Positions 24,712-55,610 of a stretch of DNA of 64,000 bases are shown here, one piece after another (positions within the stretch are counted from its first letter, which is position 1; each line of letters opens with the position of its first letter). The stretch spans positions 57,394,255-57,458,254 of the forward strand of contig OZ024933.1 of NCBI GenBank assembly GCA_964017235.1. Reading direction: 5' to 3'. The DNA comes from Sabellastarte sp. h YS-2021. Lineage: Eukaryota > Annelida > Polychaeta > Sabellida > Sabellidae. The translations under genes and the position numbers were made by a program. The notes below the pieces were generated by a model that saw only the letters and a program-made list of their open reading frames with translations, searched no databases and was not told the DNA's origin.

Positions 24712-24802
24712 GTAAGCTAAGTAATGGTAAACATTATATATTTAAGACGTTAGTACGTGGATGGCTTACCATCTTACTTCTAGGCCAGGTATGGGATATT
24801 TC

Positions 24803-25294
24803 TAGGGATGGGTCGGTATCCAAAATGTGTACATCGGGAGGTCGCCAATGCAAAACCGTACCGAATTCGGGACTCCGTGTTTTAGTACACCCCAAATAAA
24901 CATGGACGTTTCCTCTTAACGACATCGCAATTAAAGTCCTCAAATGGACAAAATATGAGAGAAACCTGTATAATTTCTTCAGATTTCTTGTTTGTTCCCA
25001 ATATTTTAAGTTTTCCTTCCATTTTATGTGTTGTCAAGCGAGATTTAGGTTATAAATTGTCGTAACCAAAACATGGCAGTTCTGCTCAACGTGTCGCTAT
25101 AAAAGTCTGCAAATAAACGAAAATATGGGGATAAAAGCTTATAATTTCTTCAGATTTTGGGTAGGTTTATAATATTTTAACTATTCCTTCCATTATATAT
25201 GTTGGCAAGCGAAGTGGCGGTTGTAAAATCTCATCACGGTATTTCAGTAAAATGCTCTCGATACCGAGATACCGGACCTACCGACCCATCCCTA
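24803..25294. mobile_element. 492-bp hAT-type MITE with perfect 8-bp target duplication
   Basis: The ends TAGGGATGGGTCGGTA and TACCGACCCATCCCTA are perfect inverted repeats. GATATTTC lies directly outside both (24795-24802 and 25295-25302). An 8-bp duplication is the hAT hallmark. The interior holds two diverged copies of a segment of about 170 bp (both with TATAATTTCTTCAGATTT, TTCCTTCCATT and TGTTG.CAAGCGA), near 24925-25075 and 25100-25245. There is no coding capacity. It lies in intron 4. Confidence 0.92.
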
Positions 25295-25312
25295 GATATT
25301 TCTGACTTGGAA

Positions 25313-25525
25313 TTTTTTTTTTATTGAGTTAATACATCCTATCCAATGGACAATTGCTAATCTGGTCGCCGCAGACCGGCCCGCCAAGCGTCAGAAAAAG
25401 ACGTCCTGTGTTTCCACCGGCCAGGCCGGACCAGTACTGTGCACTCGCCAGGCGGCACATCGTACTTCCTTCCCATCTAGACAGCGTGACGTCATAGCAT
25501 CTTTTTCGTTTGGCGCATGTTCCAT
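25313..25525 (+). repeat. DIRS A left inverted terminal repeat
   Basis: CTATCCAATGGACAATTGCT, GACGTCCTGTGTTTCCACC, CCAGTACTGTGCACTC and ATAGCATCTTTTTC all recur in reverse complement at the right end (31167-31386), with scattered differences. Confidence 0.88.
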
Positions 25526-25674
25526 GCAGACAGAATTTTATGTGAGAAAGTTTTTTGTGGTTTACTGCCAGGAATTTTTGAATTTAAGTATTTCTGTTAC
25601 TTATATGTATATTGGAGAATATATAGATCATCATGTCCTCACCTGGATAAAAGAGGGGTAGTTGTGGCCATGCT

Positions 25675-53430: not shown

Positions 53431-53454
53431 TTTTTTATGAATTATTAAAATAAT

Positions 53455-53690
53455 TTTTAATGCATTAAAATTAATGAAATCATGCACTAAATCGATTATA
53501 ACTTGAAAAGTATTGTATTTAGAGCATTTTGTTAAAATATGTTATTCACCTACTTTTTCCCACAGCAACAACATGGTGAGTAACTTGGGTGTCTATCTCA
53601 ATAGATAAGTGAGTAATAGCTACTTTTGCATTTTTCACTAACTTCCATCATGAGTGAAATCACTTGTAACTTGAAAACTATTGCATTTAG
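53455..53690 (+). repeat. 155-bp-type units at the right edge of the 133-bp array
   Basis: GCACTAAATCGATTATAACT, GTATTGTATTTAGAGCATTT, ATATGTTATTCACCTAC and AAGTGAGTAATAGCTAC. These match the start of the array at 58860 more closely than the 133-bp units. Confidence 0.75.
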
Positions 53691-54345
53691 ACCTTCAGGG
53701 TAGTACAAAAGTGTCCTATGCAAAGGGGAAAGATTTCAATTTTCACCACTTTTGGCGGCCATCTTGGATTTTAGCGGAAAAAAATGAAAAAGTGTGAATA
53801 TCTCGAAGACCATAAGAGATAGAGCGATTTCGAGCGAATTTTTGACCTGCAAGGTAGTACAAGAATGTCCTGTGCAAAGGGGTAAAATTTCAATTTTCAC
53901 CACTTTTGGCAGCCATCTTGGATTTTTGCGGAAAATGGAAAAGTGTGAATATCTCTAAAACCGTAACAGATAGAGCGATTTCAAGCGAATTTTTGACCAA
54001 AAGGGTAGCACAAGAGTGTCCTGTGCAAAGGGGAAAAATATTGATTTTCGCCACTTTTGGCGGCCACTTTGGATTTTTGCGGAAAATAGAAAAGTGTCAA
54101 TATCTCGAAAACCGTAAGAGATAGAGCGATTTCGAGCAAATTTTTGACCTGCAGGGTGATACAAGAGTGTCTTGTCCAAAGGGGAAAAATTTCATTTTTC
54201 GCCACTTTCGGCAGCCATCTTGGATTCTTGCTGAAAATGGAAAAGTGTCAATATCTCGAAAAGCGTAACAGATAGAGCGATTTCAAGCGAATTTTCGACC
54301 TGCAGGATGGTACAACAGTGTCCTATGCAAAGGGGAAAAATTTCA
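53690..54345 (+). repeat. 151-bp tandem repeat, about four units
   Basis: GCCATCTTGGAT or variants at 53758, 53912, 54063 and 54214 (spacing 154, 151, 151). Units carry AATATCTCGAAAACCGTAAG, AGATAGAGCGATTTCGAGCG, TTTTTGACCTGCA and GTGTCCTGTGCAAAGGGG. This is the last array before the right end of the composite element at 54410. Confidence 0.92.
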
Positions 54346-54410
54346 ATGTAGTATTTCTTCCCCTGCGGTACTCGGCGGGAGATACATACCGCGGCAGTGG
54401 TCTTGTTGTT

Positions 54411-55610
54411 TAAATATGTTTTCCACCTACTTTTTACACCTAAACAGTTAACTTTGAACTTTACTTCTGAATACCATTTGCAGGGCACAATGTTTGTGTG
54501 CTTTTCTTTTTCCACTTCTACTCTGAAACTCAAAACACAGAGTCAGCTGACACAGAGCCTGTTCACGGGCACTGATTATTCGTCTAAGATATTTAAAGAA
54601 TTCAAAGAATATAGTTGTTGGAAACTTTTGTCAAGAATCAAGAAGGATTTCTGAGAACTTGGAGTAACCAAAATCTGATATTTTACATGCTTTTCACTAG
54701 GGATGGGTTGTGGGCCCAGTATCTCAGCATTTTACTCAAAAACCACAGTGAAACTTTACAATCGCCATCTCAATTGTCAACACATATAATTAAAGGAAAA
54801 TCCTTAAATCTGTGGAAAATCAACACTTTTATACCATATATTTTGTACATTTTGGGGCTTTTTTATATCAATTTCCTTGAGAGAAACTGTCGTATTTCAG
54901 CTTTATGGTTTTCTCTTCCTCTCAGTGGCCTTTTCAATTGGGTATTTACTAAAAAGCATCAACAGAAAATATGCTACTGACCAATCCGTACTCATCACTG
55001 ATGAAAGCTTCTAAGCCTCAAGCAGGATTGAAACACAATTTTTAAATATGAATGTCTTTTGGATGTATTTTAAAGTTAATTCATTTACCCCAAATGAAGT
55101 CAAAATGTGAGATACTTACCCAAGTTTATATTAGGTTCTTTAGTGTTTTGATAAAGTGTCAATCAGTCTGAAGCATAATATATTAATGTTTTCAATAACC
55201 ACTCGTTAAATATTCTTTACAATTTTCTTTATTTCCACCATGATAAGATGAAAAATTATGCTCCTTTCACCTGATAATATTATTATATGTATATTTTACC
55301 TTGTGGCTTAATAAGACTTAATAAGACTAAATATCATAAATTTGTTATGGTATTTAGCAAATATTCCAAGAATTAGTATCTTTGGTTTTAAAGTTCTGTA
55401 ACTCTGCTGCTGTATTACCAAACAATGCACTTTTTTCATTGCTCATATTCATCAGAAAATTCATTACCAAACATAAAGTATTCACAGTGCATTTTGGTTA
55501 CATTTTGGAAACGATAGGGATCATATTCTTGAAAACTTGTCCTGGTGGAGGTCTGTGCTCTATGAGTGCTTTCTACTTTACAATTTCTTACATTGTGGGC
55601 ATTGTTTCAG
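54411..55610. other. Intron 4, last 1.2 kb, no gene seen
   Basis: It starts with the orphan half of a 155-bp satellite unit (GTTTAAATATGTTTTCCACC, to about 54445). The rest is AT-rich without repeat or coding evidence, up to the pyrimidine-rich acceptor at 55610. Confidence 0.5.

Follow-up and report, generated by a model that had tools for sequence, protein, structure and literature searches.

Three nested transposons, each of a known kind, within a long predicted intron of a zinc-finger gene in the annelid Sabellastarte

The window (the whole stretch of 64,000 nucleotides analysed here, from contig OZ024933.1 of Sabellastarte sp. h YS-2021) contains a real nest, in which three transposons are nested within a repeat array and a gene, and every layer of which belongs to an already known kind. 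The presence of three such transposons, one within another, in a long intron is well supported. Their order of nesting, ie intron, then element A, then DIRS B, then a MITE, is supported on sequence grounds by the diagnostic termini of A, by an empty site for DIRS B within an array, and by the target duplication of the MITE together with a sibling that is free of it. Most of this intron was very probably built by three separate insertions, each with a mechanism of its own. Every claimed level was tested separately, and the empty-site comparison was used wherever it was obtainable; empty sites are on hand for the inner two insertions, DIRS B and the MITE. The termini, the empty sites, the target duplication, a block duplication and the phase of the splice sites are all shown by the sequences. 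A preliminary description had counted five levels of mobile DNA, a figure which was rejected because only three of the levels are nested transposons, while the other two, gene and repeat array, serve as hosts. The intron offers an internally controlled case in which MITEs and tyrosine-recombinase retrotransposons have accumulated together with rolling-circle elements that carry satellite-like repeats.

The intron is bounded by the following exons.

24628 to 24711, plus strand: exon 4, from a gene for C2H2 zinc fingers, coding for a single finger and ending in phase 1 (sequence reading, joined translation, Pfam)
55611 to 55728, plus strand: exon 5, one finger and the beginning of the next, starting in phase 1 (sequence reading, joined translation)

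The intron predicted between them (24712-55610, 30,899 bp) has the donor TCAG/GTAAGC and the acceptor TTTCAG/GAGAG, with phase 1 on both sides. Exon 3 (23516-23656) provides a further finger and is also in phase 1 at its end. When exons 4 and 5 are joined, the translation is a single open C2H2 frame without a stop, and the peptide matches the Pfam family zf-C2H2 at 1e-14. The splice motifs, the equal phases and the open joined frame bear out the original proposal of phase-matched exons 4 and 5 around a 30.9-kb intron. Judged by its sequence, the gene with this 31-kb intron is a zinc-finger gene of animal type, and such exons, apparently spliced, mark the window as eukaryotic. Splicing presumably takes out the entire insertion load, and this would account for the survival of the gene. 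A search of Rfam gave 0 matches. Near the start of the window, a 155-bp array at 2-320 stops about 8 bp upstream of a long open exon with an apparent splice acceptor, the distance being counted to that acceptor.

The outermost transposon, HINE A, its component parts and the repeats on either side of it are as follows.

32176 to 32659, plus strand: 155-bp repeat array, left of element A (TRF, self-comparison, consensus comparison)
32660 to 54407, plus strand: HINE A, a Helentron-like element of the non-autonomous sort, 21,748 bp long, or 15,652 bp once DIRS B is subtracted; either end may shift by a few T
32660 to 32688, plus strand: 5' subTIR and its inverted copy, which form a hairpin at the head that folds at -9.7 kcal/mol when DNA parameters are used (folding, subTIR comparison)
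32704 to 32729, plus strand: GT/GC-rich microsatellite-like stretch of HINE A (sequence reading)
32876 to 33676, plus strand: 166-bp array of HINE A, split by DIRS B (TRF, self-comparison, consensus comparison)
39773 to 40795, plus strand: two 511/512-bp composite units (151-type piece and 166-type repeats), carrying the uninterrupted DIRS B site (self-comparison)
40939 to 53432, plus strand: HINE A array of 133-bp repeats, 93.9 copies by TRF, in which a block of 3,219 bp is duplicated exactly
53686 to 54347, plus strand: HINE A array of 151-bp repeats, 4.4 copies (TRF)
54374 to 54401, plus strand: 3' subTIR and weak 3' hairpin (54388-54401, 5-bp stem, one G-T pair) (folding)
54408 to 54436, plus strand: a repeat of the same superfamily as the 155-bp array, going on in phase beyond the right end of element A for about 29 bp, with 24/29 agreement (consensus comparison)

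This hairpin-headed composite element fits a non-autonomous Helentron (HINE), a class assigned from its subTIRs, 5' hairpin, microsatellite-like stretch, central arrays and oligo-T target without duplication; its 3' hairpin is weak. The subTIR, TATCTCCCGCC, is identical at 32659-32669 and 54374-54384 (11/11); shortened to a 10-mer, it was never matched exactly among 20 shuffles. Its inverted copy in the head, at 32679, has 1 mismatch. The 3' hairpin folds at -2.4 to -2.9 kcal/mol, and with more of the sequence included, the most stable fold uses different base pairs. The target is oligo-T with no target duplication (TATTTT/.../GTTTAAA), and the flanks rejoin in phase, the right flank being short. 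A composite element with a hairpin head had been proposed at about 32660-54410; it stands, with defined ends at about 32660-54407, and its identity as a HINE had gone unrecognised. Already bearing the 166-, 133- and 151-bp arrays, A would have entered oligo-T within or at the right edge of the short 155-bp array, moving by rolling-circle replication with enzymes from an autonomous partner.

PMC7492417 describes Cg_HINE of the oyster Crassostrea gigas as non-autonomous Helentrons with satellite-like central repeats. HINE A resembles them in its subTIR pair, the inverted subTIR copy in the head, the microsatellite, a core of tandem repeats with units of 100-200 bp and the oligo-T target without duplication. 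It departs from Cg_HINE in its weak 3' hairpin and in having three array types (166, 133 and 151 bp) rather than one, or exceptionally two. It has about 94 monomers, compared with 29 in the longest Cg_HINE array of that paper and 89 in element-associated CgiSat01 (PMC8268682). The idea that the length is a record was rejected, as CgiSat01 of C. gigas, beside those 89, reaches 232 monomers where it stands alone (PMC8268682). Compared to the DINE-1 or HINE elements of Drosophila and mites (PMC4067079), A has similar subTIRs (11-15 bp), palindromic head and TT-rich target, with a weak hairpin at the place of their short 3' palindrome, but is far longer and contains large tandem arrays.

Within the repeats of A lies the second transposon, which itself contains the third.

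33677 to 39772, plus strand: DIRS B, DIRS1-like retrotransposon, 6,096 bp including the MITE (inverted terminal repeats, internal complementary region, empty site, domains)
34341 to 35990, plus strand: gag-like frame of DIRS B, open from stop to stop
35845 to 38031, plus strand: RT/RNase H frame of DIRS B, open from stop to stop (Pfam)
35991 to 38927, plus strand: putative recombinase frame of DIRS B, open from stop to stop
33868 to 34413, no strand assigned: MITE with 15-bp TIRs (14/15), flanked by GTGAAGTG (TIR comparison, empty site in P0127)

The strongest single result for the nest is the match of the joined flanks of DIRS B (33676/39773) to two uninterrupted neighbouring units, 157/160 at 40204-40363 and 158/160 at 40716-40875, with no gap and no duplication. 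These precise empty sites confirm the earlier placing of DIRS B at 33677-39772 in the repeat ground of the element. Its inverted terminal repeats, of 169 nt, are 95% complementary, and the internal complementary region contains both ends as one junction (left end 44/44, right end 63/64), which is the hallmark of DIRS1 (PMC3266345). The three open frames overlap (34341 to 38927). Pfam gave RVT_1 at 7.6e-23 and RT_RNaseH at 1.3e-5, and a weak match of the recombinase frame to Phage_integrase (8.2e-4, 19.6 bits against a Pfam cut-off of 27.1). That frame carries, in this order, RRSEI, HDVR and FTNFY, which we take to be the recombinase catalytic boxes. The general Pfam profiles, none of them specific to DIRS, gave no family at all at E 1 in 37312-38030, the stretch after RNase H where a methyltransferase would be expected. 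With the RT frame as query, 2,735 relatives were obtained from 7,999 scored candidates, and the closest among the best 120 of the 2,735 show 93-99% identity in alignments that cover 56-94% of this frame; given such near-identical relatives, the DIRS B family was probably active recently. DIRS B entered one of A's repeats without duplication at CTTT/ATTG (the site being uncertain within the T run), and would have done so by tyrosine-recombinase exchange from a circle.

DIRS1-like retrotransposons are also recorded from the molluscs Aplysia and Lottia (PMC3266345). DIRS B shares with this group its inverted terminal repeats, its internal complementary regions, a gag frame and insertion without duplication; its RT-RNase H frame overlaps a putative recombinase frame, as theirs overlaps the recombinase. 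It differs in the MITE between the left repeat and gag and in the Pfam result for methyltransferase. The same intron contains an older, broken DIRS-like element, DIRS A (25318-31356), with inverted ends 83% alike over 193 bp and with RT and RNase H pieces.

The MITE is flanked by a perfect 8-bp duplication, GTGAAGTG, at 33860-33867 and 34414-34421, and its TIR is TAGTATAGGGAT.GA (agreement 14/15). Among 26 gag relatives, P0127 is a DIRS sibling, 98% identical over 64% of the gag query, that lacks the MITE and has a single copy of the duplication; when the flanks of the MITE are joined with one duplication copy, 46/48 residues agree with P0127 across the site. By this comparison the MITE is shown to have gone into this DIRS family, the 8-bp duplication being made on entry, and the transposase would have been supplied in trans. 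MITEs of hAT type have 8-bp target duplications and short TIRs and are non-coding, and the hAT tip consensus is YARNG. The present MITE has the 8-bp duplication, short TIRs and no coding capacity that could be seen, and its tip, TAGTA, departs from YARNG. Of the hAT-type MITE previously marked at 33868-34413, the insertion into DIRS B and the perfect duplication hold and a MITE-free sibling can be added, while the name hAT follows from the duplication length and is at odds with the tip. Self-comparison of the window at 1e-8 gave no second copy. The gag frame of DIRS B extends upstream into the MITE, which provides an in-frame ATG at 34392 (34392-34450); the relatives suggest that the usual gag start is the later MSEKQRK. 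A further MITE occurs in the same intron at 24803-25294, with TIR TAGGGATGGGTCGGTA and the duplication GATATTTC at 24795-24802 and 25295-25302, and a relative of one of its ends is found, inverted, at 54697-54798.

The 155-bp array, with about three monomers at 32176-32659, is likely but weak as a separate level; it is the weakest level of the nest and is not independent of A. Right of A a repeat of this superfamily picks up in phase at 54408 and loses its match past about 29 bp (24/29 to the 155-bp consensus, where the background maximum is 19 over 90,395 positions, related arrays excluded). The phase is established by this, but membership of the 155-bp family is not, because the 33-nt right flank has its top match within A (53531, 27/33), above the best 155-type monomers (25/33). 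A satellite at 32185-32659 resuming at 54411 had been reported, and what remains of it is the array itself and the in-phase resumption, at the shorter length and less certain affiliation just given. Over local stretches the consensus sequences of the 155-, 166- and 133-bp repeats agree at about 64-79%, and the repeat in intron 4 is 89% identical to a six-copy array at 59.0-60.0 kb which itself lies amid HINE heads and tails. The host and guest arrays are therefore not independent families, the three repeats being, on their sequences, diverged relatives. These likenesses, and the fit of the right flank to A's own module, also favour a reading in which the 155-bp "satellite" is no separate host level and forms one HINE-borne repeat family with A's arrays, A having gone in next to what was left of the core of an older HINE, or neighbouring arrays having been juxtaposed by recombination. 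We regard this as possible though somewhat doubtful, since the two flanks of A, when joined, keep the phase of the repeat, no HINE head was found in the scan directly upstream of 32176, and the oyster has standalone arrays of HINE-borne repeats (PMC8268682). Separately from these insertions, the 133-bp array of A would have been lengthened through block duplication. When 93 of its monomers were cut in register the last two drifted out, and the 91 kept comprise 33 distinct sequences. The block 41570-44788 recurs exactly at 45427-48645 (3,219 bp with zero differences, offset 3,857 bp), which is what recent unequal exchange would give, and an assembly duplication could give it also. It is improbable, even so, that part of the nest, chiefly this array, is an artefact of collapsed, duplicated or misjoined repeats: the variants along the array form a mosaic in which blocks of differing size are duplicated, a pattern that unequal exchange produces, and both ends of A and both exons surround the array in frame and phase, although the copy number may still be wrong. 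The locus thus also offers an array of about 94 monomers, carried by a HINE and apparently enlarging by block duplication next to coding exons.

A question of order also applies to the innermost insertion. The preliminary description had dated every level against the next by interruption, and a strict relative date for each layer was rejected because the MITE may already have been in a mobile DIRS copy, in which case it and DIRS B arrived jointly and the final step did not take place at this locus. Interruption by itself cannot order the MITE and DIRS B, and the window has nothing that dates either. Against joint arrival is the 98%-identical sibling without the MITE; the printed N-termini of the 26 gag relatives also contain no MITE-derived residues (0/26), most of them starting downstream of the site and hence being uninformative. 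Joint arrival is a possible but somewhat less likely course in our estimate; more probably, though with much doubt, the MITE entered after DIRS B had reached this intron.

Other parts of the window repeat the anatomy of a HINE. One such element, HINE C (19556 to about 20690), is small and complete, with the subTIR TTGTATCCACCG (12/12), a 12-bp head hairpin, 4.7 copies of a 147-bp repeat and an 8-bp 3' hairpin, and its repeat and tail type are found again at 61.2-61.5 kb. HINE E (56334-63187; ATATCCCCAGAC, 12/12), in the intron past exon 5, was found by reading and then confirmed by subTIR comparison. It encloses HINE D (56991-62194; AGGCGGGTTGCG, 12/12), which has a second head at 57705 and contains another head at 58470 and a C-type tail, with a 7-bp hairpin, at 61438. 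An extra tail with a hairpin at 63026 contradicts simple nesting in this cluster of HINE ends (56334-63215). The recurrence of the anatomy in C, and in E enclosing D, indicates that nests are a local habit and not a single accident.

That A might itself be several nested HINEs was considered, and a scan for triples gave no head and tail pair wholly inside A. To count as a triple, a 10-mer had to be followed by its inverse within about 30 bp (at most 1 mismatch), and a perfect copy of the inverse had to lie 0.3-30 kb downstream; such a scan misses decayed ends and ends with a gapped inverted copy, as it missed HINE E. There were 11 triples on the plus strand and 3 on the minus strand, 9/11 and 2/3 respectively being on elements A, C and D. 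The remaining three look like chance. Ten shuffled sequences, scanned on the plus strand, had 3 triples between them. With a looser 11-mer setting the two counts rose to 42 and 13, repeat arrays contributing many of the triples, and ten shuffles yielded 3.

A tentative and rather unlikely extension is that HINEs here carry and spread one related repeat family (155, 166 and 133 bp), and that the resulting oligo-T-rich arrays then receive more HINEs and other elements, so that introns would grow by self-seeding nests. It is illustrated in the window by A in such an array, by DIRS B in an array of A, and in the next intron by E enclosing D and D enclosing a further head and tail. If true, it would be a testable route of intron growth; otherwise the locus is a good case of known processes.

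Two pieces of other elements were seen on the minus strand outside the nest, a reverse transcriptase piece at 7587-8054 (RVT_1, 5.3e-4, under its cut-off) and a Harbinger-like transposase piece at 1904-2446 (DDE_Tnp_4, 1.6e-21).
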